Origin: Tsukamurella paurometabola
GTDB lineage: Bacteria; Actinomycetota; Actinomycetes; Mycobacteriales; Mycobacteriaceae
Length of the DNA stretch: 64,000 nucleotides
Assembly (NCBI RefSeq): GCF_900631615.1
Contig: NZ_LR131273.1
Span: 3,008,850-3,072,849, forward strand
Direction of reading: 5' to 3'
Part shown: positions 4,025 through 48,597 of the stretch, piece after piece
How the letters are laid out: each line of letters starts with the position of its first letter
Position numbering within the stretch: the first letter of the stretch is position 1
Made by a program: the position numbers and the translations under genes
The notes under the pieces: generated by a model
Told to the model about the DNA's origin: nothing
The model's database searches: none
What the model saw: only the letters and a program-made list of their open reading frames with translations

Positions 4025-4047
4025 ACGGGTGCGCCGCGCGCGGCGAC

Positions 4048-4053
4048 TACCCT
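4048..4053 (+). promoter_or_regulatory. Candidate -10 for leaderless gltX
   Basis: TACCCT ends 7 nt before the GTG start of gltX, so transcription would begin at or next to the start codon. It lies in the short iolH-gltX gap and there is no Shine-Dalgarno sequence. Confidence 0.45.
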
Positions 4054-4060
4054 GGACGCC

Positions 4061-5587
4061 GTGACTGAGTCTTCCGCCGCACCGTCGAACACCGCCGCAC
4101 CCGGGTCCGTCCGGGTGCGCTTCTGCCCGTCGCCCACCGGCACGCCGCACGTCGGCATGGTGCGCACCGCGCTGTTCAACTTCGCCCACGCGCGACACAC
4201 CGGCGGTACTTTCGTCTTCCGCATCGAGGACACTGACGCCGCCCGCGACAGCGAGGAGAGCTACGCCGCGATCCTCGAATCGCTGCGCTGGCTCGGCCTC
4301 GACTGGGACGAGGGCCCCGAGGTCGGCGGGCCGTACGGCCCCTACCGCCAGTCCGAGCGCAAGGACCTGCACCTGGACGTCGTGCGGCGCCTCGTCGAGG
4401 GCGGCTACGCCTACGAGGCCTTCTCGACGCCGGAGGAGGTGGAGGCGCGGCACGTCGCCGCCGGCCGGAACCCGAAGCTGGGCTACGACAACTTCGACCG
4501 TGACCTCACCGAGGATCAGAAGGCCGCCTACCGCGCCGAGGGGCGCAGCCCCGTCGTGCGCCTGCGCATGCCCGATCACGACTTCACGTGGAACGACATG
4601 GTGCGCGGCGAGACCACCTTCGCCGCGGGCAGCGTGCCGGACTTCGCGCTGACCCGCGCGAACGGCGATCCGCTGTACACCCTCGTCAACCCCGTCGACG
4701 ACGCGATGATGAGGATCACGCACGTGCTCCGCGGCGAGGACCTGCTCAGCTCCACGCCGCGCCAGCTCGCGCTGTACGAGGCGCTGGAGAAGATCGGCGT
4801 CGCCGAGCGCACCCCCGAGTTCGGGCACCTGCCGTTCGTGATGGGGGAGGGCAACAAGAAGCTCTCCAAGCGCGACCCCGAGTCCAACCTCTTCCACCAC
4901 CGCGACCGCGGCTTCCTCCCCGAGGGCCTGCTCAACTATCTGGCGCTGCTCGGCTGGGGCATCTCGCCGGACAACGACGTGTTCAGCCTCGACGAGATGA
5001 TCGCAGCGTTCGACGTGCACCGGGTGAACTCCAACCCGGCGCGCTTCGACCAGAAGAAGGCCGACGCGATCAACGCCGAACACATCCGCCTGCTCGCGCC
5101 GGACGACTTCGCGGCCCGGCTGCGGGCCTTCCTCGTCGAGCGGGGCTTCGTCGACGGTGCGCGCCTGGGGGACGAGTTCGCGACCGCGGCGGAGCTCGTG
5201 CAGACCCGCATCGTGGTGCTGTCGGACGCCTGGGACCTGCTGAAGTTCCTCTACGTCGATGAGGCCGACTTCTCCGTGGACCCGGCGGCCGCGGCGAAGA
5301 ACATCAAGGCCGACGCCGGCCAGGTGCTCGACGAGAGCATTGCCGCGCTCGAGGGGCTCACGGACTGGACCACCGAGGCCATCGAGGGTGCGCTGAAGGG
5401 CCGGCTCATCGACGAGCTGGAGCTCAAGCCGCGCAAGGCCTACGCTCCGATCCGCGTCGGCGTCACGGGCTCACCCATCAGCCCGCCGCTGTTCGAGTCG
5501 CTGGAGTTGCTCGGCCGCGAGCGCACCCTGGGCCGCCTCGCCGCCGCTCGTACGCTTGTCCCCGCCGACGGCGCGGCGCCGCAATAG
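4061..5587 (+). CDS. gltX: Glutamyl-tRNA synthetase
   Basis: A 508-residue class I aminoacyl-tRNA synthetase that charges tRNA-Glu. The HIGH-type signature is in [19 protein letters not shown] near residue 25, the Glu/zinc-region stretch [15 protein letters not shown] follows, and the KMSKS-type loop reads KLSKRDP. In organisms without GlnRS this enzyme also charges tRNA-Gln non-discriminatingly. The gene stands immediately upstream of tRNA-Gln and two tRNA-Glu genes, so enzyme and substrates are linked. The start is GTG with no Shine-Dalgarno but a TACCCT box 7 nt upstream. Confidence 0.95.
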
Positions 5588-33859: not shown

Positions 33860-35449
33860 TCACATCCGGAAGACGCCGAAGGCGTCGGTGCCGTGGACGG
33901 GGCCGTTGTTGATGGCGGAGAGCGCCATACCGAGCACCGTGCGGGTGTCGCGGGGGTCGATGATGCCGTCGTCGTAGAGCATCCCGGACATGAAGGCCGG
34001 CAGGGACTCCTTGTCGATCTGGGTCTCGATCGCGGTACGCATGCCGTCGACGAAGGCGGGGTCCATGGCCTGGCCGCGGGACGCGGCGGAGGCCGCGGCC
34101 ACCTCGGTCACCACGTCCGCGAGCTGCTTGGCGCCCATGACCGCCGAGCGTGCACTGGGCCAGGAGAACAGGAACCGCGGGTTGAAGGCGCGGCCCGCCA
34201 TGCCGTAGTGGCCGGCGCCGTAGGAGGCGCCCGCGATCAGCGAGAGATGGGGGACCTCGGAGTTGGAGACGGCGTTGATCATCATCGAGCCGTGCTTGAT
34301 CATGCCGCCGCGCTCGTACTCCGCGCCCACCATGTAGCCGGTGGTGTTGTGGATGAACAGGAGCGGCGTGTCGTAGCGGTTGGCCAACTGGATGAACTGC
34401 GTGGCCTTCTGCGCCTCCTCGGAGAACAGGACACCGCGGGCGTTGGCGAGGATGCCGATGGGGTAGCCGTGCAGGTTCGCCCAGCCGGTGGTGAGCGAAC
34501 CGCCGTACAGCGGCTTGAACTCGTCGTAGTCGGAGTCGTCGACGATGTGGGCGATGATCTCCCGCGGGTCGAAGGGGATCTTCAGATCGTCCGGGACGAT
34601 GTCGAGCAGGCCCTCGGCGTCGTAGCGCGGGGGCTTGACCAGGCTCGACGGTGCCGTGCCCTGCTTGCGCCAGTTGAGTCGCTTGACGATCGAGCGGGCG
34701 ATCCGCGCCGCGTCGAGCTCGTCGGTGGCGAGGTAGTCGCCGAGGCCCGAGGTCCGCGAGTGCATCTCGGCGCCGCCGAGCGTCTCGTCGTCGGAGATCT
34801 CGCCCGTCGCGGCCTTCACCAGGGGAGGTCCGGCGAGGAAGACCTTGGAGCGCTCCTTGATCATCACCACGTGATCGCTCATGCCGGGGATGTACGCGCC
34901 GCCCGCGGTGGAGTTGCCGTAGACCACGGAGATCGTGGGGATGCCCGCCTTCGACAGCTGCGTGAGGTTGCGGAACATCGCACCGCCGGGGACGAACACC
35001 TCCTTCTGCGTCGGCAGATCGGCACCGCCGGACTCGACCAGCGAGAGCACCGGCAGGCGGTTCTCCTTCGCGATGTCGTTGAGACGCAGCGACTTGCGCA
35101 GCGTCCACGGGTTGGAGGTGCCGCCCTTGACGGTCGGGTCGTTGGCGACGACCATCACCTCGACTCCCTCGACGACGCCGATGCCGCCGACGAGGGAGGC
35201 GCCGACCTGGAAGTCACTGCCCCAGGCGGCGAGCGGCATCAGCTCGAGGAACGGGGAGGCGGGATCGAGCACGCTGTCGATGCGCTCCCGGGCCGTCAGC
35301 TTGCCGCGCCCCCGGTGCCGCTCCACGTACTTCTCGCCGCCGCCCGCGAGGGCCTTGTCGAATTCGGCGGTGAGATCGGCCAGCTTGTCGAGCATCGTCT
35401 TGCGGTACGCGGCCGCGTCGGGGGCGGGGGTGCTGCGGAGCACCGTCAT
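33860..35449 (-). CDS. Acyl-CoA carboxylase carboxyltransferase subunit
   Basis: A 529-residue carboxyltransferase of the MccB/AtuC type, a single chain with two crotonase-like halves. LVESGGADLPTQKEVFVPGG and VYGNSTAGGAYIPGMSDH are in the N half. LLFIHNTTGYMVGAEYERGG and GASYGAGHYGMAGRAFNPRF are in the C half. These agree with 3-methylcrotonyl- or geranyl-CoA carboxylase beta subunits rather than with propionyl-CoA carboxylase. It is paired with the alpha subunit immediately downstream. Confidence 0.9.
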   Translation of the reverse strand: MTVLRSTPAPDAAAYRKTMLDKLADLTAEFDKALAGGGEKYVERHRGRGKLTARERIDSVLDPASPFLELMPLAAWGSDFQVGASLVGGIGVVEGVEVMVVANDPTVKGGTSNPWTLRKSLRLNDIAKENRLPVLSLVESGGADLPTQKEVFVPGGAMFRNLTQLSKAGIPTISVVYGNSTAGGAYIPGMSDHVVMIKERSKVFLAGPPLVKAATGEISDDETLGGAEMHSRTSGLGDYLATDELDAARIARSIVKRLNWRKQGTAPSSLVKPPRYDAEGLLDIVPDDLKIPFDPREIIAHIVDDSDYDEFKPLYGGSLTTGWANLHGYPIGILANARGVLFSEEAQKATQFIQLANRYDTPLLFIHNTTGYMVGAEYERGGMIKHGSMMINAVSNSEVPHLSLIAGASYGAGHYGMAGRAFNPRFLFSWPSARSAVMGAKQLADVVTEVAAASAASRGQAMDPAFVDGMRTAIETQIDKESLPAFMSGMLYDDGIIDPRDTRTVLGMALSAINNGPVHGTDAFGVFRM

Positions 35450-35501
35450 GAGTGGAGTCCTTTGCCGTTGTGGGTACCGGAGTGGGTGCCTGGGAGGGGG
35501 A

Positions 35502-36674
35502 TCACTTGTAGCCGAGTCGGTTGGCCGCGAGCGTGGTGAGGATCTGGGTGGTGCCGCCGCCGATGCCGAGGATGCGGACGTCGCGGTAATGGCGCGAGAC
35601 CTCGTACTCGGACATGTAGCCGTGGCCGCCGAAGAGCTGCACCGCCTCGTTCGCGACCCACTCGCCGCACTCGACGGCGGTGTTCTTCGCGAAGCACGCC
35701 TGCGGCACGAGCTCCGCGGCGGCGGCGGGACCGCCGGATTCGAGGGCCTCGGCGTACAGATCGGCGACGTGCCGGCTGTACACGCGGGCGACCTCGATCT
35801 TCCGTCGCATCTCGGTGACCGTGTTCTGCACGGCCTGCCGGGTGATGAGCGGGGCGCCGAAGGTCTCGCGCTCGCGGACCCAGTCGAGGGTGAGGTCGAG
35901 ACAGCGCTGCGCGTGCGAGTAGGCCTGCACCGCGAGGGCGAGCCGTTCGGTGACGAAGGCGGCGCCGATGAGGAGGAAACCGCTGCCCTCGGGGCCGATG
36001 AGGTTCTCGGCGGGGACGCGGACGTCCGTGAAGGAGAGCTCGGCGGTGTCCGAGGCGTGCCAGCCCATCTTCTTCAGTGGGGCGCTCACCTCGAATCCGT
36101 CCAGGCCCTTGGGGATCACCAGCAGGCTGATCCCGCCGGCGCCCTCGCCGCCCGTGCGGACCGCTGTGACCACCCAGTCCGCGCGGATGCCGGAGGTGAT
36201 GAACGTCTTGGCGCCGTTGACGATGTAGTGGTCGCCGTCCTTGCGGGCGGTGGTCGTGAGGTGTCCCACGTCGGAGCCGCCGCCGGGCTCGGTGATACCG
36301 AGTGAGCTGATCCTGTCGCCGGCGAGGACCGGGGCCACCCACTTCTGCTTCTGCTCGTCGGTGCCGGCGAGGATGATGTGCGGCACCGAGATCCCGCAGG
36401 TGAACAGCGACGCGAACAGGCCACCGGAGCCGCCCGCCTCGTGCATCGCCTCGCACACGATGAGCGCGTCGCGGGGGTCGCCGTCGCCGCCGCCCACCGA
36501 CTCGGGGAAGGAGACGCCGAGGAGGCCGAGGTCGCCCGCCTTCTTGTGGAGTTCGCGGGGGAGCAACCCGCCGGCCTCCCACTCGTCCAGGTTCGGCAGG
36601 ATCTCACGTTCGGTGAACGCGGTCACCGTCTTCCGCAGCGCGAGCCGCTCGTCGGACTCCCACAGGCTGGTCAT
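35502..36674 (-). CDS. Acyl-CoA dehydrogenase
   Basis: A 390-residue acyl-CoA dehydrogenase with SSLGITEPGGGSDVGHLTTTA, IVNGAKTFITSGIRADW and LFGGHGYMSEYEVSRHYRDVRIL. It is clearly different from the second dehydrogenase of the operon at 30703. Close relatives act on citronellyl- or isovaleryl-type CoA esters in terpene and leucine catabolism. The ATG overlaps the AtuA stop (ATGA). Confidence 0.9.
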   Translation of the reverse strand: MTSLWESDERLALRKTVTAFTEREILPNLDEWEAGGLLPRELHKKAGDLGLLGVSFPESVGGGDGDPRDALIVCEAMHEAGGSGGLFASLFTCGISVPHIILAGTDEQKQKWVAPVLAGDRISSLGITEPGGGSDVGHLTTTARKDGDHYIVNGAKTFITSGIRADWVVTAVRTGGEGAGGISLLVIPKGLDGFEVSAPLKKMGWHASDTAELSFTDVRVPAENLIGPEGSGFLLIGAAFVTERLALAVQAYSHAQRCLDLTLDWVRERETFGAPLITRQAVQNTVTEMRRKIEVARVYSRHVADLYAEALESGGPAAAAELVPQACFAKNTAVECGEWVANEAVQLFGGHGYMSEYEVSRHYRDVRILGIGGGTTQILTTLAANRLGYK

Positions 36675-38413
36675 GCGATCTCCTTCGTGGTGTGGCCGGC
36701 GGGGAGCAGGCCGGTGGGCAGGTCGACGTAGCGGCCCCGCAGCCACTCGCCGACGCCCTTGGCCTGCGGGTCGAACCGGTAGCCGTGGGCGACGCCCTTG
36801 CCGAGCAGATCCTCGATGACGAAGTTGAGGGCCTTGAGGTTGGGCAGTTCGTAGCGGCGGACGGGAAGGTCCGCGGCCTCCGGAAGGAGTTCGCGCAGAG
36901 CCTGTTCGGTCAGGTTACTGCGGAGCCATTCGTACCCCGCATCGGACTCCGCCCAGACGCCGACGTTCGCGCTGCCGCCCTTGTCGCCGCTGCGCGCGCC
37001 GAAGACCGTGCCGAGCGGGACGCGGACCGTCGGGCCGACGGGGCGCACCGTGTCCTCGCCCGGCTGGGACGGATCCGTGACGAGCTCCTGGACGACCTCG
37101 GGCGGCGCGATGTCGACGACGGTGCCGTCGGGCCGGTGGGCGCGGTGGGGGACGTCACCGTTCGGTACGTAGACCGCGCGGTACACACCGTAGGGGCCGC
37201 CGCTCGACGGCGGGGCCATCGGGGAGGCACCGGGGTACGTGGCGAGCGCGAGTTCCACGGCGGCGGAGCTGAAGGCGCGGCCGACACGGTTCGGATCGGC
37301 GTCCCACGCGACCACCGTCAGCGTGGCCGACGCCGCGGCCTCGGTGGGGGCGTCGGGATGATCGGTGCGCGCCAGGCGGAACTGCAGGTCCGACGGTGCG
37401 CCGCCGGTCCGGTCGAGCGCGTCGCGGAGCTGTGCCTCCAGCAGTGCGGCCTTGCGCTCGACGTCGATCCCGGTGAGCAGGAAGGCGATCTCGTTGCGGA
37501 AGCCGCCGAGCGTGGTGGTCGCGACCTTGGTCGTGGTCGACGGCGCCTCGCCGCGCACGCCCGTGACGGTCACCCGGTCCGGGCCGTCCTGGGCGAGGGA
37601 CATGGAGTCGAGCCGCAGCGTCACGTCGGGGTTCGCGTACCGCTGGCCCGTGACCTCGTAGAGCAGTTGCGCCGTGACGGTGCCCACCTCCACCACGCCG
37701 CCCGTGCCGGGCTGCTTGGTGATGGCGAAGGAGCCGTCGGCGGCGATCTCGGCGATGGGGAAGCCGGGGTGCAGCAGCTGCTCGATCGGGTGACGGTCGA
37801 AGAAGGCGTAGTTGCCTCCCGTGGCCTGCGTGCCGCACTCGATGATGTGGCCCGCGGCGACGGCGCCGGCGAGAGCGTCGAAGTCGGTGCGCTGCCAGCC
37901 GAATTCGGCGATGGCCGGGCCGAGGATGACGGAGGCGTCGGTGACCCGGCCGGTGATCACGATGTCGGCGCCCGCGGCGAGGCAATCGGCGATGCCGAAC
38001 GCACCGAGGTAGGCGTTGGCGGTCACGGCGTTCGGCACGCCGAGGTCGGCGGACCGGGCGACGAGGTCGTCACCGTCGACCCACCCCACGGCGAGGTCGA
38101 CGCCGGCCTCCGCGACGGCCTTCTCGACCGCGGCCGCGAGGCCGCCCGGGTTGAGGCCGCCGGCATTGACGACGACCTTGGTGCCGCGCTCGGCGAGCAG
38201 GCCGAGGTGGGGGGTGAGGTGCCGCAGGAAGGTCTTGGCGTAGCCGAGGTCCGCGTCCTTGAGCCGGTCGCGGCCGAGGATGAGCATGGTGAGCTCGGCG
38301 AGGTAGTCGCCGGTGATGTAGTCGACGCGCGGGCCGGCGAGCATCTCGCCGATCGCCGCGGCGCGGTCGCCGTAGAAGCCGGAGACGTTGGCGATGCTGA
38401 TGGTGCGGGTCAT
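36671..38413 (-). CDS. AtuA-like acyclic terpene utilisation protein (DUF1446)
   Basis: A 580-residue protein. Its N-terminal two thirds match the DUF1446/AtuA family: ISIANVSGFYGDRAAAIGEML, ITGDYLAELTMLILGRDRLKD, VVNAGGLNPGGLA, IVITGRVTDASVILGP and HIIECGTQATGGNYAFFD. The C-terminal part carries the associated domain with VFGARSGDKGGSANVGVW. AtuA is required for citronellol/geraniol degradation in Pseudomonas, but its reaction is unknown. Its linkage to a carboxylase is the main reason to see this operon as isoprenoid or branched acyl-CoA catabolism. Confidence 0.85.
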   Translation of the reverse strand: MTRTISIANVSGFYGDRAAAIGEMLAGPRVDYITGDYLAELTMLILGRDRLKDADLGYAKTFLRHLTPHLGLLAERGTKVVVNAGGLNPGGLAAAVEKAVAEAGVDLAVGWVDGDDLVARSADLGVPNAVTANAYLGAFGIADCLAAGADIVITGRVTDASVILGPAIAEFGWQRTDFDALAGAVAAGHIIECGTQATGGNYAFFDRHPIEQLLHPGFPIAEIAADGSFAITKQPGTGGVVEVGTVTAQLLYEVTGQRYANPDVTLRLDSMSLAQDGPDRVTVTGVRGEAPSTTTKVATTTLGGFRNEIAFLLTGIDVERKAALLEAQLRDALDRTGGAPSDLQFRLARTDHPDAPTEAAASATLTVVAWDADPNRVGRAFSSAAVELALATYPGASPMAPPSSGGPYGVYRAVYVPNGDVPHRAHRPDGTVVDIAPPEVVQELVTDPSQPGEDTVRPVGPTVRVPLGTVFGARSGDKGGSANVGVWAESDAGYEWLRSNLTEQALRELLPEAADLPVRRYELPNLKALNFVIEDLLGKGVAHGYRFDPQAKGVGEWLRGRYVDLPTGLLPAGHTTKEIA

Positions 38414-39198
38414 GGACGTCCCTCCTGCGGGGCGCGGCCGGTGCCGGGGGCGCCGGCGAAGCACTGCGCGATGGTGAGCCAGTGGGCGGCGTCCGCACCC
38501 GTGGCGACGAGATCGGTGTCGGCGACGTTGATGCGCTGCGTCGCGAGGCGGCAGAAGTCCTCGAGTGAGCCGGTGACGCGCTGTGCGGCATCGCCGGGGC
38601 CGAAGGTGATCTCCGCGCCGTCGGCGGCGACGAGGAAGACGTCGAAGGGCTCGGCCGGCGGCGTCTCGCCGTTCACCGTGTACGCGAAGTCGCGGGTCTT
38701 GTAGGCGATCTTCGCGACGTGGGGGAGCGCCTCGGGTGCGTCCAGTTCGGTGCCGGCCGCGTCGGCGATGTCGAGGCCGTGCGCCCAGGTCTCCATGAGG
38801 CGGGCGTTCGCCATGGTGGCGGGCCGCATGGGCGGGCCGAACCAGGGGAGCGGCGTGCCGGGGTCCGCCTCGCGGAGCGCGACGGCGAGGGCGGCGCGAC
38901 CGCGGTCCCAGCGCGCGCGGAGGTCCGGGTCCGTGGCCAGCTCGGCGGCGCCGGCGTCGACGAAACCCATCGGGTCCGCCATCGCGTCCTTCAGGATCGC
39001 GGCGAAGCCGTCGGGGTCGGTGGCGGCGACGAGCGAGACCTCGTCGGTCCAGGTCAGGTGGGCGACCTGGTGGGCGACGGTCCAGCCCTCGGCGGGCGTG
39101 GCGATCGACCAGTCGGGAAGCGAATCCGCGATGGCGGCGACGGCGGCCGAGGTGGACTCGAGCGCGTCGAACACGGGGGCTGAAGTGGGCACGCCCAC
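38410..39198 (-). CDS. TIGR03084-family DinB-like protein
   Basis: A 262-residue protein of the mycothiol-dependent maleylpyruvate isomerase/DinB superfamily (TIGR03084 group). The helical N-terminal bundle shows TPAEGWTVAHQVAHLTWTDEV and MRPATMANARLMETWAHGLDIADAAG, with His and Asp/Glu residues that could bind a metal. A C-terminal SCP2-like part follows. Its function is unknown; it is usually found with terpene-type acyl-CoA genes in actinobacteria. It is the first gene of the operon. GTG at 39198 is used; GTG at 39192 is an alternative. It overlaps the AtuA-like gene by four bases. Confidence 0.75.
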   Translation of the reverse strand: MGVPTSAPVFDALESTSAAVAAIADSLPDWSIATPAEGWTVAHQVAHLTWTDEVSLVAATDPDGFAAILKDAMADPMGFVDAGAAELATDPDLRARWDRGRAALAVALREADPGTPLPWFGPPMRPATMANARLMETWAHGLDIADAAGTELDAPEALPHVAKIAYKTRDFAYTVNGETPPAEPFDVFLVAADGAEITFGPGDAAQRVTGSLEDFCRLATQRINVADTDLVATGADAAHWLTIAQCFAGAPGTGRAPQEGRP

Positions 39199-39221
39199 AC
39201 TCTGTCAGCTGGAGGCGAAAA

Positions 39222-39243
39222 AAACAAGCAGCACTGCTTGTTT
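39222..39243. promoter_or_regulatory. Perfect inverted repeat, probable TetR operator
   Basis: The left arm AAACAAGCAG (39222-39231) is exactly complementary to the right arm at 39234-39243, with a 2-bp centre. It lies 24-45 bp upstream of the first gene of the acyl-CoA operon and about 93 bp upstream of the divergent defence-like gene. Size and symmetry suit a TetR dimer. Confidence 0.65.
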
Positions 39244-39336
39244 GCATCCGATAGCTACGGTCAGTAAGTCGCGCTATGGTTGCAAAAGACAAGTATTGGG
39301 AACTTAGGATGCGTTTATATAGAAGGTGGGGATCGG

Positions 39337-42300
39337 TTGAGCGGCACTGCGGGGGCATCGGGTTATCGATACCAGTATCTCTACACGGTCGAACGAATGC
39401 TGGTTCTGCTTGAACGAGGAATTGATGTGCGGTCGTCAATTTCGGTTGACGGTGACGCCGCAGAAGATCTTCGAGATTCACATGTTGTGGACTTTGCCGT
39501 CCGCGACAAGGAGGGATCTCTCCTGGAGATTCATCAAGTCAAGTCGACAATAAAGAGTGACGAGAGTGCGTACTCGCCCGCGGATGCGATTCGAGTTCTC
39601 ACGCGAATGATTCGTAACGAATCCGCGCGCCTATACGTATTGACGACCAACGCGCGCCCGAGTTTGGGGCTGGCGGAATTGGTAGAAGCGCTGAAGAGTT
39701 TCCGAACGGGCGAAATCGGTGGGGACGACCTTGTCGTCCGACTCAGGGAGATTTGTTGGAGATCGCCGGCCGCATTGCAACATATCGATCGCGTTGAGGC
39801 TGACGACCTTGTCCAGCGGTTCTCGCTTTGCGAGATTGAGGCCCGATCCGAATCGGAGACAGACGTATCAGCACGGATTCTGGACCGTGTCTCATCGTGG
39901 AGAAGATCTATACAACTCCCATTGGGGCAACGCGCAGGAGGGGTTCTTTGCGGATACCTCGAGAATGCTGTGTTCAAACGCGGCGCGTCCCACGGTTCGG
40001 GGCTGGATTCGAGTTCGATGACATTCGAGGAATTTTGTCGAGAGCTCGCAATGGCGAGCGAGATTATCGCAGATGTAGTCTCGCTCAGGGAATATGGAGA
40101 CGGAATTTTTGCTGTACCTCCGGCGAGTGGGGTTTTGCGGACGCGAGAGATGACGTTGCTTGAAGATCGTCTACTTGCGGGCGGAAAATCTAGCATAGGC
40201 CCCAAGCGGTGTGCGTTGGTCGGGAAGTCTGGAATCGGCAAGACACGCCTGGCGGCGATGTACTGTCATCGAAACCGTGCCCTCTATGACAGGATCGTTT
40301 GGATAGACGCTGAATCGGATTCCTCGATCGTTAGCTCGCTGGCACGATCGAAAATCTTCTCCGATCTGGTTTCAACCGAATCGTCGAGTAGAGAATCAGC
40401 GCCGCACGTTTCAGAAAGATTCCGGTCCCGCATTGATGACACACCGGGGCGTTGGCTGTTGGTACTTGATAACGCTGTATCGTTCGGGGCTATTGAAAAA
40501 TGGATACCGCGGCATAGCGATATTCATGTCGTGTTCACGTCTATCAATGCCAGAGATTGGGGCTCGACACAGCCGATTGAGGTGCGCCGATTCGAGCGGC
40601 ATGAGTCCGTCCAACTGCTTCTCGCCAGCGTTGTTGATGATGGGTGTGAGATCGAAAGCGGCCAGATTGAATCTGCCGCGGATGCTGTATGCGATCTATT
40701 AGGTGATTGGCCGCTGGCGATTAGAGTTGCGGCCGCAAGCCTCGGCACACGGGGGCGTTTGATAACACACTGTGACCTCTATCGCGATGAGATCGACAGA
40801 TATCGCTTGTTGGCGGACGATGAGCTGGAACGCGACGGATATGATAAGCCTCTACTTGCTGCGCTACATATCGCTGTTGACGGCGTTCTAAGCAGATCCT
40901 ACGAGCGTGCCATCAGTGACTCCGGCGAGGTTGCCTCCGAGTTTGCAGCTGTCTGTTCCGTTCTAGCTCCGACAGCGATTCCTGCTAAGATGGTGTATGA
41001 GGCCGCCACGACCGATCTGAGTGTGCTTATTGATACTTCGCGGAGTCCGGCGACCGATGTCGATGAGTACAGTCTACTGCGCACGATCAATTCGCTGCGG
41101 ACCGCGTCACTAATCAACGATTCAGTTGAGGTCGATGCTCGTAGCAATGTGGGCGCGCTTTCTGATCGATACGACATGAATGAGATTGTGCAGCATGTTA
41201 TTCGACAGAAGTTCGACCTCTATGTCGTCGTCGAACAAGTCGGAGGATTTGTTTCCCATTGGATTGCGCATTACATGGATCACGACTCGATAAGGTTCGC
41301 GCTGGAAGTGGAGCCGCACGCTGAGGCGCTATTGACTAGGCTTCATCAATTGTCCGATCCCCCGAATCTCTGCGCGCTGTTGGCCGGGAACCTTGCGCAT
41401 TTGTACCATAAGCAAGGGCGCTATGACGACGCTGAGCGACTTCTGAATGATGAATTAAACTGGCTTGAAGCGAAGGAGCGACCTCATCTGGTGTCGCTGT
41501 GCAAGACCCATCAACAGCTTGCTACGGTTCTTCTGAACCGCGGCGACGATCGGTCAGCGGTAGTTGAACATCTCATCCAGTCGCTGGAGGCTATGAACGG
41601 CGAAGTGGCCAGGTCGGGATGGGATTGGGATGGCGGTGGTGTAGCGGCAAGTATCGTCGATATCGTTGGAATGCTTGAAAGGCGCATCTCTGCGGAACGG
41701 CCAGGAGGTCGGGGCTCGGAGCGGGAAATTATCCTCTCGATCCGCGCCGAGGCAATTGCGGCAATGAAGAGATTTGGATTTGCTAGCCCGTTTCTGATCG
41801 AGTACAGCTCGATTCAACGCGATCTAGAGGTTGGCGATTATCCGGCGGTCCTTGACAAGTGTCGTCAGGTTCGACAGTCGCTAAAACTAACCAGTGAACA
41901 AAGAGTTGAAGTTGATCTGTGTGAGATTGAGGCTTTGGCGTACACCTCGAACTATTCCAAGCTGGAGGAATGTGTAGGTGACCTGAAGGTACGCCTAGAT
42001 CTGGAACCCAACGTTCACGCCGAGGCTGCAGCAAGCATTCTCGACTGCGTTCAAGCTCTGATTGTGCCCGGCATTCTTGGAGGGGTGTCGTCGAAATTGG
42101 CCTGCCGGACTCTGTTGGGTCTCGCGAACGGGATGCGCTTGAATGACTTTGATCGCTATTGCTCAAAGATCTTCACATGCTGTTTGGAACGTTGGCTGGG
42201 GAATCGCGACGCATTCCGTGAACAGAGGAACGAGGTTGCGCTGCTGGATCCCGTGGCCCCTGGTCAGCGTCGTCGTGTCGGGCCTGGCATCCCCGACATG

Positions 42301-42411
42301 CCTAAGATGCTCCGAGATTACGCGATGACGGATCCCGAGCCAGTGGCAAGGCGGCAGTTTCAGCTGACAATGCTCGACTGGATGCTCAAACTTGAACAGA
42401 ACCGGAACTAG
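39337..42411 (+). CDS. Candidate antiphage STAND protein: Cap4-like nuclease + NB-ARC NTPase + TPR
   Basis: A 1024-residue protein unlike its surroundings. Residues 1-150 look like a PD-(D/E)xK nuclease of the Cap4/DUF4297 type: SGTAGASGYRYQYLYTVERML, then D52 in HVVDFAV and Q67-V-K69 in LEIHQVKS (a D-QxK site). Residues about 290-470 are an NB-ARC STAND NTPase: Walker A GKSGIGKT (296-303), Walker B WLLVLDNA (373-380), and GDWPLA near 456. The rest is helical with at least one TPR pair near 680-740. The TTG at 39337 has GAAGGTGGGG 5 nt upstream; a TTG at 39280 is possible. G+C is near 50% (29 of 60 in 39361-39420) against about 70% around it, indicating horizontal origin. Defence is inferred from architecture. 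Confidence 0.8.
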   Translation: MSGTAGASGYRYQYLYTVERMLVLLERGIDVRSSISVDGDAAEDLRDSHVVDFAVRDKEGSLLEIHQVKSTIKSDESAYSPADAIRVLTRMIRNESARLYVLTTNARPSLGLAELVEALKSFRTGEIGGDDLVVRLREICWRSPAALQHIDRVEADDLVQRFSLCEIEARSESETDVSARILDRVSSWRRSIQLPLGQRAGGVLCGYLENAVFKRGASHGSGLDSSSMTFEEFCRELAMASEIIADVVSLREYGDGIFAVPPASGVLRTREMTLLEDRLLAGGKSSIGPKRCALVGKSGIGKTRLAAMYCHRNRALYDRIVWIDAESDSSIVSSLARSKIFSDLVSTESSSRESAPHVSERFRSRIDDTPGRWLLVLDNAVSFGAIEKWIPRHSDIHVVFTSINARDWGSTQPIEVRRFERHESVQLLLASVVDDGCEIESGQIESAADAVCDLLGDWPLAIRVAAASLGTRGRLITHCDLYRDEIDRYRLLADDELERDGYDKPLLAALHIAVDGVLSRSYERAISDSGEVASEFAAVCSVLAPTAIPAKMVYEAATTDLSVLIDTSRSPATDVDEYSLLRTINSLRTASLINDSVEVDARSNVGALSDRYDMNEIVQHVIRQKFDLYVVVEQVGGFVSHWIAHYMDHDSIRFALEVEPHAEALLTRLHQLSDPPNLCALLAGNLAHLYHKQGRYDDAERLLNDELNWLEAKERPHLVSLCKTHQQLATVLLNRGDDRSAVVEHLIQSLEAMNGEVARSGWDWDGGGVAASIVDIVGMLERRISAERPGGRGSEREIILSIRAEAIAAMKRFGFASPFLIEYSSIQRDLEVGDYPAVLDKCRQVRQSLKLTSEQRVEVDLCEIEALAYTSNYSKLEECVGDLKVRLDLEPNVHAEAAASILDCVQALIVPGILGGVSSKLACRTLLGLANGMRLNDFDRYCSKIFTCCLERWLGNRDAFREQRNEVALLDPVAPGQRRRVGPGIPDMPKMLRDYAMTDPEPVARRQFQLTMLDWMLKLEQNRN

Positions 42412-42416
42412 GTCTC

Positions 42417-43151
42417 CTACGGTTGACATAGATTGTCGGCTTGCACGATGACGGCGGCGGAGGAGCGGTCGACGGACAGGCCGTACTCGCGGGCGACGAA
42501 CGCGAACTGCTGCGCGTACTGGCAGTGGAAGCGCTCGTTGGACGGCATCCAGCGGCCCGGGGGAGAGTCGCGCTTGTTCTCGTTCGCCGGCCCGTCCACC
42601 GCGACGAGATTCCTCGGATCGTTGGCGAACGCGGCGCGTCTGGTGTCGTCCCACGACCAGGCGCCCATGTCCCAGGCGTAGGCCAGCGCGATGACGTGGT
42701 CGATCTGCACCTTGGCCGAGGTCTTCGCGCCGCGCTCGAACCGGATCGTCGCGCCGCCGTACGGGTCGACCAGCACTCCCGTGGCGACTGCGCGGGGGCA
42801 CGTCGAGGTGCGGACGTAGGTCTTGTCCGTCAGGTCGCGGTCCAGCACGTCGTTGCGGGTGTCGCAGCCGTTGTGCCCGAGCGGCGCCGACTGGTCGTCC
42901 GTCCACGCCTTCCCGAAGGCCGCGCGACGGTAGGGCTGCGGGGCGCGCTCCCGGGTGGCGACGATCCGGACGCCGGCGAGCGGCGCACCGTCGGGCACCG
43001 TGGCCGAGGGGGCCACCGGGCCGGTGCCGGGCTCCGCGCCGGACCGGTCCCGGTACGCCCCGATCGCGACGAAGACGGCCGTGGCCGTGACCAGTACGAG
43101 CGCCAGCCACGACCGCCGGGACAGGCTGCGGGTGGATCTCCGACGGGACAC
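42417..43151 (-). CDS. Secreted HNH nuclease-family protein (DUF1524-like)
   Basis: A 244-residue protein with an N-terminal Arg-rich stretch and a signal anchor (WLALVLVTATAVFVAIGAY), so the catalytic part is outside the membrane. The HNH core is VQIDHVIALAYAWDMGAW, followed by FANDPRNLVAVDGPANENKRDSPP and the WMPSNERFHCQYAQQF stretch, as in the common actinobacterial extracellular HNH proteins. The GTG at 43151 is chosen because TACGTT on the minus strand ends 6 nt before it. Its stop is only 5 bases from the stop of the convergent STAND gene. Its base composition is that of the core genome. Confidence 0.82.
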   Translation of the reverse strand: MSRRRSTRSLSRRSWLALVLVTATAVFVAIGAYRDRSGAEPGTGPVAPSATVPDGAPLAGVRIVATRERAPQPYRRAAFGKAWTDDQSAPLGHNGCDTRNDVLDRDLTDKTYVRTSTCPRAVATGVLVDPYGGATIRFERGAKTSAKVQIDHVIALAYAWDMGAWSWDDTRRAAFANDPRNLVAVDGPANENKRDSPPGRWMPSNERFHCQYAQQFAFVAREYGLSVDRSSAAVIVQADNLCQP

Positions 43152-43157
43152 GAGCGC

Positions 43158-43163
43158 AACGTA
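43158..43163 (-). promoter_or_regulatory. Candidate -10 for leaderless HNH gene
   Basis: TACGTT on the minus strand ends 6 nt before the GTG at 43151. The divergent proA -10 lies 31 bp away. Confidence 0.4.
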
Positions 43164-43194
43164 ACACCGCGCACCGACGATTCCGGCCGCCCCG

Positions 43195-43200
43195 TATTCT
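43195..43200 (+). promoter_or_regulatory. Candidate -10 for leaderless proA
   Basis: TATTCT ends 6 nt before the proA ATG at 43207, and no Shine-Dalgarno is present. Confidence 0.5.
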
Positions 43201-43206
43201 CGGACC

Positions 43207-44481
43207 ATGAGCACGCCCACCGCCCAGGACGCCGAACTGCAGACCGCGACCGCCGCGGTCGAGGAGGCGGCCCGCGCCGCCCGCGCCGCGTCGAAGCAGC
43301 TGATCACGCTGACCACCGAGCAGAAGAACGCCGCGCTGCACGCCGCCGCCGACGCGCTGCTGGCGAGCAAGGACCGCATCCTCGCCGCGAACGCCGAGGA
43401 CGTCGAACGGGCCCGCGCCGCCGGCACCGAGGAGTCGCTCATCGACCGGCTCGCCCTCAACGCGGCTCGCGTGGACGGCATCGCGTCGGGCCTGCGGCAG
43501 GTCGCCGGCCTGCCGGACCCGATCGGGAACGTGCTACGCGGCTCCACGCTGCCCAACGGCCTCGAGCTGCGACAGGTGGCCGTGCCGCTCGGCGTCGTGG
43601 GCATCGTCTACGAGGCCCGGCCCAACGTCACCGTCGACGCCTTCGGGCTCACGCTCAAGTCCGGCAATGCCGTGCTGCTGCGCGGCTCGAGTTCGGCGGC
43701 CTCGTCGAACGCCGCCCTCGTGGCGATCCTGCGCGAGTCCCTCACGGCGAGCGGCATCACGCCCGACGCGGTCTCGCTGCTCTCCGCCGACTCCCGGGCC
43801 AGCGTGACCGCGCTGATCCGAGCCCGCGGCCTGGTCGACGTGGTCATCCCTCGCGGCGGCGCCGGACTCATCGCGGCCGTGGTGCGCGACGCGACCGTGC
43901 CGACCATCGAGACGGGCGTCGGCAACTGCCACATCTACGTCCACCCCGCGGCCGACCTCGACATGGCCGAGGAGATCGTGCTCAACGCCAAGACGCGCCG
44001 GCCCAGCGTCTGCAACACCGTCGAGACCGTGCTGGTCGATCGCGCGCTCGCCGACACCTTCCTGCCCCGCCTCCTGAGCACCTTCCAGGCCGAGGGCGTG
44101 ATCGTGCACGGCGACGAGAACGGCATGGTGCCCGCCACCGAGACCGACTGGGCCGACGAATACCTCAGCCTGGACGTCGCGGTGAAGCTGGTCGACGGGC
44201 TGGACGCCGCGATCGCGCACATCGACCACTACGGCACCGGGCACACCGAAGCCATCGTCACCGGCGACCTCGCGGCGGCCCGCGCCTTCACCACCCGCGT
44301 CGACGCCGCCGCCGTGATGGTCAACGCGTCCACCGCGTTCACCGACGGCGAGCAGTTCGGGTTCGGTGCGGAGATCGGGATCTCCACGCAGAAGCTCCAC
44401 GCCCGCGGCCCGATGGGGCTCCCGGAACTGACCTCCACCAAGTGGATCGCGTGGGGCGACGGGCACGTCCGGCCCCGGTAA
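43207..44481 (+). CDS. proA: Gamma-glutamyl phosphate reductase
   Basis: A 424-residue aldehyde-dehydrogenase-fold enzyme, the second step of proline synthesis. Signature stretches are [18 protein letters not shown], the catalytic Cys in [25 protein letters not shown] and [21 protein letters not shown]. Its length is normal. It stands first in a block that M. tuberculosis also has (proA, MoxR, VWA, nadD). ATG start with no Shine-Dalgarno, predicted leaderless. Confidence 0.96.
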
Positions 44482-44515
44482 TTCCGACCCGCCCGGAACC
44501 GGGTGCCCTCGGGGG

Positions 44516-44521
44516 TAGGTT
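44516..44521 (+). promoter_or_regulatory. Candidate -10 for leaderless first SRPBCC gene
   Basis: TAGGTT ends 7 nt before the ATG at 44529. Confidence 0.45.
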
Positions 44522-44528
44522 GTCGGGC

Positions 44529-44978
44529 ATGGCAATCAACGAGTCCCTCGAATTCGACATCGACGCGCCGGTTTCGCTGGTGCTGGACACCCTCGCGGAC
44601 GTCGAGGCGCTGCCGGACTGGTCGTCGGCGCACAGCAACGTCAAGGTCGTCGAGCGCGACGCGAACGGCCGCCCGAGCGTGGTCGACGCCTCCGTCGGCC
44701 TCATGATGTTCAGCGACAACCTCACCTTCGACTACGTCTTCACCGACGTCAGCTGCAAGTGGGACACCCGCAACGAGGGCACCGCCGTGCGCAGCCAGGG
44801 CGGCATCTACGAGCTCGCACCCAAGGGCGACGATCAGACCCACGTCAAGGTCACCATGTACCTCGATCCCAAGGTCAAGGCGCCCGGATTCGTGGTGAAG
44901 AAGGGCATCAAGCTGGCGATGGACATCATCAAGAACGGCCTCACCAAGGAGGTCCTCAAGCGCAAGGCCGCGGCCTGA
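44529..44978 (+). CDS. SRPBCC (START/Bet v1-like) family protein, copy 1
   Basis: A 149-residue polyketide-cyclase/START-like protein that should form a single ligand-binding helix-grip fold. It begins MAINESLEFDIDAPVSLVLD, has VEALPDWSSAHSNVKVVERDA, and ends with a basic helix (GLTKEVLKRKAAA). It is a close paralogue of the next gene, sharing the opening, the PWSS-type region, the RSQGG(I/Y)Y motif and the KEVLKRKAA ending. The ligand is unknown. A hairpin separates the two copies. Confidence 0.82.
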   Translation: MAINESLEFDIDAPVSLVLDTLADVEALPDWSSAHSNVKVVERDANGRPSVVDASVGLMMFSDNLTFDYVFTDVSCKWDTRNEGTAVRSQGGIYELAPKGDDQTHVKVTMYLDPKVKAPGFVVKKGIKLAMDIIKNGLTKEVLKRKAAA

Positions 44979-44984
44979 CGCTCC

Positions 44985-45017
44985 GCCGCCGGGCTCGCCG
45001 TCCGAGGGCCCGGCGGC
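44985..45017 (+). terminator. Hairpin between the two SRPBCC genes
   Basis: GCCGCCGGGC (44985-44994) pairs with its complement at 45008-45017 across a 13-nt loop, 6 nt after the first SRPBCC stop. Together with a separate -10 for the second copy it suggests two transcription units. Confidence 0.6.
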
Positions 45018-45022
45018 CTCGC

Positions 45023-45028
45023 TAGATT
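45023..45028 (+). promoter_or_regulatory. Candidate -10 for leaderless second SRPBCC gene
   Basis: TAGATT, a good -10 match, ends 6 nt before the ATG at 45035, which places the expected transcription start on the A of the start codon. Confidence 0.55.
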
Positions 45029-45034
45029 GTTGCA

Positions 45035-45487
45035 ATGGCAATCAAGGAGAAGGTCGAGTTCGAGATCGATGCGCCCGCCGCGCTCGCCTACGCGACGCTG
45101 CTGGACGTCGAATCGCTTCCCGAGTGGTCGTCGTCGCACAAGCGGGTGACGGTCGTCGAGCGCGATGCGGAGGGGGACCCGCGGGTCGTCGAGGTCGAGG
45201 CCGGCATGGTCGGCATCAGCGACTCGATGCGGTTCCGCTACGAGTTCACACCCGTGACCAGGGTCGCCTGGCAGTCGGAGAGCGAGGGCGTCGCCGTGCG
45301 CTCCCAGGGCGGGTACTACCAGCTCACGCCGGTCGGTGACGACAAAGTGCACGTCCTGTGCGAGATGAACATCGCCCTCAAGATCAAGCTGCCCGGCTTC
45401 GTCGTGCGCAAGGGTGTGAAGATGAGTGCAGAGATCGCGTCGAAGGGCTTCTCGAAGGAGGTCCTCAAACGGAAGGCTGCACGCTGA
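45035..45487 (+). CDS. SRPBCC (START/Bet v1-like) family protein, copy 2
   Basis: A 150-residue paralogue of the gene at 44529. It opens MAIKEKVEFEIDAPAALAYA, continues with VESLPEWSSSHKRVTVVERDA and VAVRSQGGYYQLTPVG, and closes with KEVLKRKAAR. The duplication looks old, since only motif residues are shared. It leads directly into the MoxR ATPase gene with a 4-base overlap (CTGA), so a structural or regulatory link with MoxR-VWA is plausible but unproven. Confidence 0.82.
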   Translation: MAIKEKVEFEIDAPAALAYATLLDVESLPEWSSSHKRVTVVERDAEGDPRVVEVEAGMVGISDSMRFRYEFTPVTRVAWQSESEGVAVRSQGGYYQLTPVGDDKVHVLCEMNIALKIKLPGFVVRKGVKMSAEIASKGFSKEVLKRKAAR

Positions 45488-46389
45488 GCACCGACATCAC
45501 GACCCCCGCGCCCACCGCGTTGTTCACCAGCGTCGACGACGTCGCCGCGGCACTGCGCGAGACCGGCTACATCCCGTCGGTCGCCACCGCCACGGCCGTC
45601 TTCCTCGCCGACAGACTGGGCAAGCCGCTCCTCGTGGAGGGCCCCGCCGGCGTCGGAAAGACCGAGCTGGCCCGCGCCTGCGCCCAGGCCAGCGCCGCCC
45701 GCTTCGTCCGCCTGCAGTGCTACGAGGGCATCGACGAGGCCCGCGCCCTGTACGAGTGGAACCACGCCAAGCAGATCCTGCGCATCCAGTCCTCCGGCGG
45801 CGACGGCGACTGGGACGACACCAAGCAGGACGTCTTCTCCGAGGAGTTCCTCCTCCCGCGCCCGCTCCTGCAGGCGGTGCGGGAGGGCGGACCGTCGGTC
45901 CTGCTCATCGACGAGGCCGACAAGGCCGATCTCGAGTTCGAGGGGCTGCTGCTGGAGGTCCTCTCGGACTACGCGGTGACGGTGCCCGAACTGGGCACCA
46001 TCGTCGCCGAGCGCAAGCCGCTGGTCTTCCTCACCTCGAACGCCACCCGTGAGCTGTCGGAGGCGCTCAAGCGCCGCTGCCTGTACCTGCACATCGACTT
46101 CCCGGACGCCGAGCTGGAACTGTCGATCATCCGCAGCCGCGTTCCCGACCTGCCGACCGAGGTCGCGCAGCAGTTGCTGCGCGTCATCTCGACGCTGCGC
46201 GGTCTCGATCTGAAGAAGAAGCCGTCCGTCTCGGAGACGCTCGACTGGTGCCGCACCCTGCTCGCGCTCGGCGTGACCGGCAGCGCCAGCGGGTCCATCG
46301 ACAAGGCGGCCCTCCGCTCGACGCTCGGCGTGGTGCTCAAGCACCAGGTCGACATCGAGACCGCCGCGGCGGCGCTGGGCCTGTCATGA
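45484..46389 (+). CDS. MoxR-type AAA+ ATPase
   Basis: An AAA+ ATPase of the MoxR family, about 301 residues. Walker A is VEGPAGVGKTELARAC, Walker B is SVLLIDEADKADLEFEG, and sensor-1 is PLVFLTSNATRELSEALKRRC. MoxR ATPases act with VWA proteins as metal-dependent chaperones, and the VWA gene follows with an ATGA overlap. There is no ATG, GTG or Shine-Dalgarno-preceded start near the upstream stop. A CTG at 45484 overlapping the previous stop (CTGA) and preceded by GGAAGG is proposed; TTG at 45520 is the alternative. The function of the target is unknown. Confidence 0.85.
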   Translation: MSTDITTPAPTALFTSVDDVAAALRETGYIPSVATATAVFLADRLGKPLLVEGPAGVGKTELARACAQASAARFVRLQCYEGIDEARALYEWNHAKQILRIQSSGGDGDWDDTKQDVFSEEFLLPRPLLQAVREGGPSVLLIDEADKADLEFEGLLLEVLSDYAVTVPELGTIVAERKPLVFLTSNATRELSEALKRRCLYLHIDFPDAELELSIIRSRVPDLPTEVAQQLLRVISTLRGLDLKKKPSVSETLDWCRTLLALGVTGSASGSIDKAALRSTLGVVLKHQVDIETAAAALGLS

Positions 46390-47894
46390 CCAGCGTGCGG
46401 GATCCGGGCGCCGGCACGCCTCTGGATACGCACCTGCACGCCTTCGTGCGGACCCTGCGTGAGCGCGGCATGGCCATCGGCCCGGGCGAGGCGATCACCG
46501 CCGCCGAGGTGCTGACGGTGCTCGACCTCACCGACCGCGGCCAGCTCCGCGAGGGCCTCGCCGCGGTGCTGCTGCGCGAGCAGATGCACCGCAAGACCTT
46601 CGACGTCATCTTCGATCTGTACTTCCCCGTCCGCGGCGGCTTCGGCGCGGCGGGGAGCGGGCCCGACGGTGCCACCGGGTCCGGCGGGGAGGGCTGCTCG
46701 GGGGCGCCAGGCGAGGCGCCCGACCAGGTCGACCCGTTGAAGATGCCCGCTCCCGACACGCCGCCCGATCCGGACGCCGTCCGCGAGGCGCTGCGGCAGG
46801 AGGCCGTCGCCGCGCTCGTCGCCGGCGGCGACCACGACGGCATCGCCAGCCAGATCGTCGAGCAGCTCGGCGAGTACCAGTCGGCGACCGGCACGGCCTT
46901 CTCCTCGTACCAGGCGCTTAAGGCGTTGAACCCGCAGACGCTCATCGCCGCCATCGCCAACGGCCTGCTCGCCGCCGCCGGGGAGGACGGCGCCGCGCCC
47001 GGCAGCTTCGAGTACGAGTCCGCGCGCCGCGTCGCGCGCTCGCGCGTCGCCGGGCTCACGGAGCGGGTGCAGGAGCTCACCTCCGTCGCCATGGCCGCTC
47101 GACGGGGCCCCGAGGCCGTCGCGCAGTACGCCGCTCCGCAGCTGCCCGAGAACGTCGCCTTCTTCGCCGCCACCCGCACCGAGCTGCACCGCATGGAGCA
47201 GACCGTCCGGCCGCTGGCCCGCCAGCTGTCCACACGCCTGCTGGTGCGGCGGCGCCGCGCCCGCCGCGGCCCCATCGACCTGCGCCGCACGCTGCGCAAG
47301 TCGATGTCGACCGGCGGCGTGCCGATCGATCTGGCGCACCGTCGACCCCGGCCCACCAAGCCCGAGCTCGTGCTCCTGTGCGACCTCTCCGGCTCCGTCG
47401 CGGGCTTCTCCAACTTCACGCTGCTGCTCACGCACGCGCTCAGCGCCGAGTTCTCCAAGATCCGCGTGTTCGGCTTCGTCGACTCCGTGGACGAGATCAC
47501 CGACTACATCGACCCGTCGCGCACGCTCACCGTCGACACCGTGGTGGACATGTTCGACCGGGTGATCCGGGAGACCAAGGTCGCCCGGTTCGGCGGCTCC
47601 GACTACGGCAACGTGCTGCGCACGTTCGTCCGCGACTTCCCCGACGCGGTCACGCACCGCGGGACCCTGCTGATCCTCGGCGACGCCCGGTCCAACCACA
47701 CCGATCCCGCGCTGGCGGAGCTCGACGAGCTCGTCGAGCGGGCGCGCCACGCGTTCTGGCTCAACCCGGAGCGGAAGGCCTCGTGGGGCACGGGAGACTC
47801 GGTCGCGGACAAGTACGGGCGGCTCATCGACATGTACGAATGCCGCACCGCGGGGCAGCTGGCCGAGGTCATCGGGCGCCTGCTGCCCGTCTGA
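46386..47894 (+). CDS. VWA-domain protein (MoxR partner, CoxE-like)
   Basis: A 502-residue protein. The N-terminal helical region has a Gly/Pro/Ser-rich linker (about residues 85-125). The C-terminal third is a von Willebrand A domain with a complete MIDAS site: [11 protein letters not shown] (DxSxS), the Thr/Asp region near FGGSDYG, and ILGDARSN. It also carries a long Arg-rich stretch ([14 protein letters not shown]). In M. tuberculosis Rv2426c/Rv2425c are the same pair. It overlaps the MoxR stop by four bases. Confidence 0.88.
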
Positions 47895-47911
47895 CCCGCG
47901 GGCGGGATGCA

Positions 47912-47917
47912 TAGGAT
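47912..47917 (+). promoter_or_regulatory. Candidate -10 for leaderless nadD
   Basis: TAGGAT ends 8 nt before the ATG at 47926, in the 31-base gap after the VWA gene. Confidence 0.45.
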
Positions 47918-47925
47918 GGACCGTT

Positions 47926-48597
47926 ATGCGTGAGTCCAGCACCGCCGGGCGCCGTCGCGGCAGCGATCACGGTCGCCGCCGCGTGGGCGTCATGGGTGGG
48001 ACCTTCGACCCGATCCACCACGGTCACCTCGTGGCCGCCAGCGAGGTGGCGGACCGATTCGATCTCGACGAGGTGATCTTCGTCCCCACCGGCCGACCGT
48101 GGCAGAAGAGCGAGGTCACGCCCGCCGAGGACCGCTACCTGATGACGGTGATCGCGACCGCGTCGAACCCGCGTTTCTCCGTGAGCCGAGTGGACATCGA
48201 CCGCGGCGGCGACACCTACACCGTGGACACGCTGCGCGACCTGCACCGGCAGAACCCCGACACCGACCTGTTCTTCATCACCGGCGCCGATGCCCTCGCC
48301 TCCATCCTCAGCTGGCAGGACTGGGAGGAGCTGTTCGGGCTCGCCACCTTCATCGGCGTCTCCCGGCCCGGCTACCACCTGGCGGCGGATCACCTGTCGG
48401 ACGTGCCGAAGGATAGATTGTTCCTCGTGGAGGTGCCCGCGCTGGCCATCTCGTCGACCGACTGTCGCGCACGCGCCGACGCCGGACGGCCCGTCTGGTA
48501 CCTCGTGCCCGACGGCGTGGTGCAGTACATCGCCAAGCGAGCTCTCTATCAGAGCCGCCCGGCACCGGACCAGACCGTGAACCCAGGAGGATCATGA
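47926..48597 (+). CDS. nadD: Nicotinate-nucleotide adenylyltransferase
   Basis: A 223-residue nucleotidyltransferase, the penultimate step of NAD synthesis. The ATP motif is [19 protein letters not shown] (HxGH), the second motif is [14 protein letters not shown], and the C-terminal [21 protein letters not shown] corresponds to the ISSTxIR signature with a Cys replacing the usual residue. A basic N-terminal extension of about 18 residues precedes the fold; the GTG at the fold start would be an alternative. rsfS overlaps (ATGA). Confidence 0.95.

Follow-up and report, generated by a model that had tools for sequence, protein, structure and literature searches.

A single gene of Tsukamurella paurometabola, lying in a 64,000-nucleotide stretch of its genome (NZ_LR131273.1, positions 3,008,850 to 3,072,849; hereafter the window), probably encodes a self-contained defence protein resembling nucleotide-binding leucine-rich repeat (NLR) receptors, in which sensor and DNase would be combined in one chain and which is likely directed against phages. 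From N- to C-terminus the protein consists of a predicted Cap4-type nuclease region, an NB-ARC module of the signal transduction ATPase with numerous domains (STAND) class and a helical C-terminus resembling tetratricopeptide repeats (TPR). The predicted catalytic and nucleotide-binding residues are conserved among relatives built in the same order, and the gene was acquired horizontally at this locus. Coordinates are collected in Table 1.

A predicted nuclease region joined to an NB-ARC switch

By profile, motifs and predicted fold, the central part of the protein is a STAND NTPase of the NB-ARC/AP-ATPase type. The Pfam NB-ARC model (PF00931) matched with 28.5 bits, above its cut-off of 23.5, and a family profile of the switch matched AfsR (E 2e-12). 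Thirteen STAND parts were aligned, from the 11 intact family members and the broken copies in genomes G001 and G547 (G1119, in which no STAND part was found, and the fragment L003 were omitted). The Walker A and B motifs were present in all of them, with G296, G299, G301, K302, D378 and the PLA of residues 459-461 identical throughout. We take WPLA to be a GLPL-type motif and MNEIVQ to be the counterpart of the MHD motif; at the expected MHD histidine, ten rows have Asn and three have His. A predicted model of residues 255-1024 (mean predicted local distance difference test (pLDDT) 52.9, predicted template modelling score 0.32) had pLDDT values of 52-82 in residues 665-814 and mostly of 69-85 in residues 265-404, where a single block of ten residues dropped to 54. 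Its predicted fold matched plant NRC proteins and Apaf-1, and Foldseek ranked first 6mfv (E 8.8e-6), a STAND protein whose sensor is a TPR. The C-terminal part of the model matched helical-repeat proteins, which says little beyond the repeat type because helical repeats match each other easily; TPR_12 matched residues 680-742 below that model's cut-off (E 1.6e-5). Read by eye, L072, L073, L076, L111, L112, L123 and the L126 piece carry an extra C-terminal stretch of ~150-200 residues, possibly a second sensor domain, which the window copy lacks.

At the N-terminus, residues 7-239 matched the LmuA profile PDLC03848 (E 6.8e-8), the only PADLOC match of the protein at E <= 1, and the same profile was matched by four of eight members scanned (E <= 0.01). 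The Pfam Cap4_nuclease model gave no match to the window protein at E <= 1 and matched one relative only, the G001 piece, below cut-off (E 1.8e-4). Nucleases of the PD-(D/E)xK type are recognised by a conserved Asp together with a (D/E/Q)xK motif. Across 13 N-terminal rows (alignment A10: the 11 intact members, G001 and G1119, omitting L003 and G547, which has no N-terminus), G9, Q13, D52, Q67, K69, R189 and P261 were identical. In a two-row model of residues 1-272, which was poor (pLDDT 45.6), this region forms a helix, three strands and a second helix, strands 2 and 3 bearing D52 and QVK, an arrangement that we take to resemble the core of Cap4-type nucleases. The LmuA match and the identical residues support the assignment of the N-terminal region as a putative Cap4-type nuclease.

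An initial annotation, made from the letters of the stretch, had proposed the same three parts. Its motif positions (D52, Q67-V68-K69, GKSGIGKT and WLLVLDNA) proved correct on re-reading, and the profile matches above agree with its nuclease and NB-ARC assignments, as do the TPR_12 match and the helical model with its reading of the C-terminus. The frame is open from 39280, where an alternative, longer TTG start lies, to 42411; the TTG at 39337 agrees with the N-termini of the relatives, which align from that position. In the forward frames of 39245-42437, all three of which were read, open stretches reach 1,047 codons, compared with a maximum of 224 in 200 mononucleotide shuffles.

A little-described family of single-chain proteins

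Eleven intact, full-length members were found: the window protein, L067, L072, L073, L076, L111, L112, L113, L122, L123 and L124. Of the ten intact relatives, one lies on a plasmid of Mycolicibacterium arabiense, one, found with alignment A2, in Acidipropionibacterium thoenii and the other eight in genomes of the same class as the window; G001, G1119, G547 and G029 (L003) hold pieces only. The plasmid protein (WP_163916444.1, 910 residues) was recovered by tblastn against plasmids and is 24% identical over residues 3-705. Of 249 genomes from the order, three were matched by its first 309 residues (E <= 1e-4), the genome of the window counted.

A five-row model (A3) matched 106 of 394 genomes of the class at E <= 1e-6, four of them, own genome included, across Cap4, linker and P-loop (>= 200 bits); among the matches listed, the remaining hits scored at most 51 bits and started at model position 214 or later, at the linker end and P-loop. 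Of 377 genomes from the order, eight, the own genome again among them, were matched by an eight-row model (A9) at E <= 1e-20: six over the whole region, G1119 in Cap4 and linker only, and G547 only in the part that starts at the linker end. Among 296 genomes drawn from the phylum, the own genome was the sole match. These three rates are lower bounds, because no more than 5 to 7 first-look candidates were scored in each genome. Searched directly, the window protein matched 11 of 396 phylum genomes at E <= 1e-10, all except its own in the STAND part only, and its N-terminus matched its own genome and G001 only among 151 genomes of the family.

Peptide-pattern scans from the window protein alone recovered no relative in genome or viral contigs. 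Alignment A2 reached at least four loci on genome contigs, with the Cap4 region in L076 only, among the matches listed, and at least one on viral contigs, which was rejected as a TIR-looking STAND protein. Also set aside were L077 and L078, with TIR-looking N-termini, and L079, with a kinase-looking one (all read by eye and without the Cap4 region), together with H5 (Nonomuraea, L068), whose match does not read through in a single frame. Alignments A3 and A6 found nothing in viral contigs, tblastn gave no phage match, and matches in PHROGs were weak and confined to the P-loop region.

A tree was built from 71 STAND stretches, with duplicate loci and one L079 stretch of two omitted; in it, the 13 family rows and L003 fell on one side of a weakly supported branch (49/76). 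Eleven of these rows formed a clade with L003 (support 97/84), while the window and M. arabiense rows, whose letter make-up is unlike the rest of the tree, were not firmly inside it. Given this weak placement, it is the Cap4-linker-STAND order, common to the window copy and its relatives, and the identical residues that support the assignment of the window copy to a little-described subfamily of single-chain Cap4-STAND proteins. The initial annotation had called the protein an orphan of a little-studied subfamily: the gene does stand alone at its locus, but with ten further intact relatives it belongs to a family. Our search of the open-licence literature, to which this statement is confined, found no paper describing a Cap4-NB-ARC fusion, and the available parts of PMC13092281, PMC8195603 and PMC12881547 describe none.

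Neighbours of the relatives and a possible plasmid target

Defence-type neighbours occur at three of the ten other intact loci, a count that supports but does not prove a defence role. The neighbours of L067 include an annotated Pycsar effector and cyclases, those of L072 a TIR protein and a PDC-S35/PycTIR-type TIR protein, and those of L122 a CRISPR-like array and a caspase-kinase protein; at the remaining seven intact loci the neighbours were judged by eye alone, except for a weak, below-cut-off phage-integrase match in a frame next to L112. Among the broken copies, that of G547 has hsdM in its vicinity.

Two loci hold further features. In the array at L122 (1407-4152), a 31-base repeat recurs in as many as 19 copies, mostly at 61-base spacing, around a masked stretch, its weakest copies being 61% and 68% alike. 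In G1119, the broken Cap4 copy adjoins a gene for a Roco (LRR-Roc-COR) protein (L125, 10230-14576, - strand).

The same switch and nuclease might instead be aimed mainly at plasmids or conjugative elements, with plasmid DNA or transfer proteins as the signal. Lamassu, whose LmuA is the only PADLOC system protein matched by the nuclease region, acts on plasmids as well; one relative resides on a 434-kb plasmid, and the integrase match beside L112 could be read in the same way. We consider this unlikely, since the C-terminal repeat suggests a protein signal rather than DNA, and those Avs relatives whose trigger is known sense phage proteins (PMC12931631).

Relation to known systems

Close parallels in layout are Avs1-Avs4 (AVAST), which carry an N-terminal nuclease, a central STAND NTPase and a C-terminal sensor in one chain and cut DNA altruistically (PMC12931631). 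The window protein, however, matched no Avs model (PADLOC, E <= 1), and its NTPase is of the NB-ARC/AP-ATPase type. The proteins bNACHT25 and bNACHT32 likewise join an N-terminal PD-(D/E)XK DNase, whose D48 is required for defence, to a central NLR-type switch (PMC12169576). Their switch is a NACHT module with an NCH1 C-terminus, whereas PF05729 (NACHT) was unmatched by the window protein at E <= 1 and matched weakly by four of eight members at E <= 0.1. LmuA of Lamassu and Cap4 of the CBASS system share the predicted nuclease type, the former through the match to the window N-terminus and the latter through the Cap4_nuclease match to one relative. In contrast to both, the nuclease region is here fused to a STAND-TPR chain, and no SMC-like LmuB partner was recognised when the adjoining frames were read by eye, without a dedicated search. 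Plant NLRs (NRC2/3, Sr35) and Apaf-1/CED-4 resemble the NB-ARC module in sequence and predicted fold, but the window protein is bacterial and has a DNase-type effector region and a TPR-like C-terminus.

The STAND module also matches FxsT (residues 268-625, E 2.5e-52), which raises the alternative of a regulator or accessory protein of a ribosomally synthesised and post-translationally modified peptide (FxSxx-COOH) system, with an N-terminal domain that binds DNA. The NCBIfam model FxSxx_TPR was matched by all eight members scanned (E <= 0.01, at best 2.5e-52), and AP-ATPase-TPR proteins accompany FxSxx peptide systems (PMC7159879). This role nevertheless appears improbable. The window protein scored 178.5 bits against the NF040586 cut-off of 300, and no radical-SAM or peptide gene was recognised by eye among the frames at 34000-48000, where no profile search was made. 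In addition, the predicted catalytic residues are kept in 13/13 N-termini, and Cap4 motifs stand upstream in the same frame in 11/13 family rows compared with 0/59 other NB-ARC stretches, a simple motif search in which some stretches had little upstream sequence. The profile scores in that comparison favour the family, because the profile was built from it and the labels were set by hand.

Acquisition and breakage of the gene

The gene was acquired horizontally and recently, as the initial annotation had suggested. It is absent from the slot in all seven congeners in which both flanks were matched (L022, L025-L029 and L031, of 15 congeners). Their inter-flank gap is 18 to 87 bases in six cases, while L022 has 526 other bases (3538-4063), and the right edge of the ~3.2-kb insertion shifts by ~10 bases among congeners. 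The other eight do not test the slot, because their left flank was unmatched within ~1.5 kb beyond the right neighbour. A full-length copy was present in one of 16 genomes of the genus, the own genome. The G+C content of the gene is 54.4%, compared with a mean of 71.7% (standard deviation 1.9, minimum 68.2%) over 219 other 3,075-base stretches of the window; the two local counts given initially, 29/60 and 42/60, were exact on recount. Seven relatives were compared with their flanks (L122-L124 omitted): L076, L111 and L112 were poorer in G+C by more than 0.1, L067, L073 and L113 were within 0.04, and L072 was richer. Thus profile matches exist and the gene is neither universal in the genus nor core-like in composition, contrary to the findings named at the outset as fatal to the proposal.

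Some further features of the slot were recorded. The palindrome at the left edge is the same or similar in 7/8 relatives' stretches. In another congener, L023, unrelated-looking letters (1-738) stand in place of the left flank, which together with the 526 bases of L022 indicates a variable slot. On the right, the adjoining frame (42417-43604, - strand) carries a GmrSD_C nuclease-type domain (PF07510, E 4.5e-13); DNA from its 3' end onwards (42437-42450) matches in 10 of 15 congeners, and by eye its last codons differ from those of congeners at the insertion edge.

Several copies are broken. G001 has the slot without the gene, yet its Cap4 part ends one contig and its STAND part another, and on the outer side of both pieces lies a partial transposase-like gene, recognised in one case by an HTH_38 match and in the other by eye; this looks like a separate acquisition, because its STAND part groups with L113 and not with the window copy. 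In G1119 an integrase-core gene lies downstream of a Cap4 part, and in G547 such a gene lies upstream of a STAND part; L003, from the 66%-complete genome G029, is a fragment whose frame has no P-loop. At the loci L013, L002, L125 and L126, three copies survive only in part, and all three are bordered by a transposase-like gene where the other half is missing. Such copies fit a costly or quickly lost gene, in few cases and with some assemblies incomplete. That the window copy is itself a passenger, a foreign gene expressed weakly or not at all and heading for loss, would accord with these pieces, the L003 fragment and the TTG start, but is improbable, as its frame is intact over 1,024 codons, its motifs are kept and a ribosome-binding-like sequence is present.

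Table 1 Features of the Cap4-STAND gene and its insertion site (window coordinates).
Feature	Position	Strand	Remark
Cap4-STAND(NB-ARC)-TPR gene	39337..42411	+	1,024 codons plus stop, intact
Cap4/LmuA-type nuclease region (predicted) and linker, residues 7-239	39355..40053	+	LmuA profile PDLC03848
D52, predicted metal ligand	39490..39492	+	identical in 13/13 N-terminal rows
Q67-V68-K69 motif	39535..39543	+	Q and K identical in 13/13; V in 11/13, I in two
NB-ARC/AP-ATPase module, residues 290-478	40204..40770	+	PF00931 match, family profile, predicted fold
Walker A GKSGIGKT, residues 296-303	40222..40245	+	
Walker B WLLVLDNA, residues 373-380	40453..40476	+	D378 identical in 13/13 STAND rows
WPLA, presumed GLPL-type motif, residues 458-461	40708..40719	+	PLA identical in 13/13 STAND rows
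MNEIVQ, residues 614-619	41176..41193	+	sits where the MHD motif is expected
TPR-like stretch, residues 680-742	41374..41562	+	within predicted all-helical C-terminus
Purine-rich ribosome-binding-like stretch AGAAGGTGGG	39321..39330	+	6 bases upstream of TTG; read by eye
Inserted stretch of ~3.2 kb holding the gene	39245..42436		absent from 7 congeners with both flanks matched
Palindrome AACAAGCAG-CA-CTGCTTGTT	39223..39242		left edge of insertion; terminator-like on - strand; read by eye

Discussion

By analogy with the STAND superfamily, and with the workings described for Avs proteins (PMC12931631) and bNACHT25 (PMC12169576), we infer how a single-chain defence protein of this kind most likely works, from autoinhibition through nucleotide exchange, oligomerisation and DNA cutting to phage defence. 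At rest, the NB-ARC module, presumably bound to ADP, and the helical/TPR C-terminus would keep the Cap4-type nuclease inactive. The C-terminus would sense an invader-derived or infection-induced signal, upon which nucleotide exchange would open the NB-ARC switch. Chains would then oligomerise through this module, bringing the Cap4 domains together, and the activated domains would cut DNA, so that the phage may be stopped with or without death of the cell.

More tentatively, the family may form a separate lineage of bacterial receptors with an NB-ARC switch of the plant-NLR type and a DNase effector, a one-gene 'resistosome' distinct from Avs and bNACHT. On this possible reading, Asn at the MHD histidine in 10/13 rows would belong to the lineage and the C-termini would have diversified for different triggers.

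Bacterial AP-ATPase proteins are mentioned in PMC12169576 and PMC7159879. The characterised bacterial NLR-like nucleases, among those in the literature we found, use Avs-type or NACHT modules. If the proposed function holds, a one-gene NB-ARC system would allow a direct comparison of how this switch, known from plants and the apoptosome, is coupled to a bacterial DNase, and what bacterial AP-ATPases sense would become testable in a single gene.
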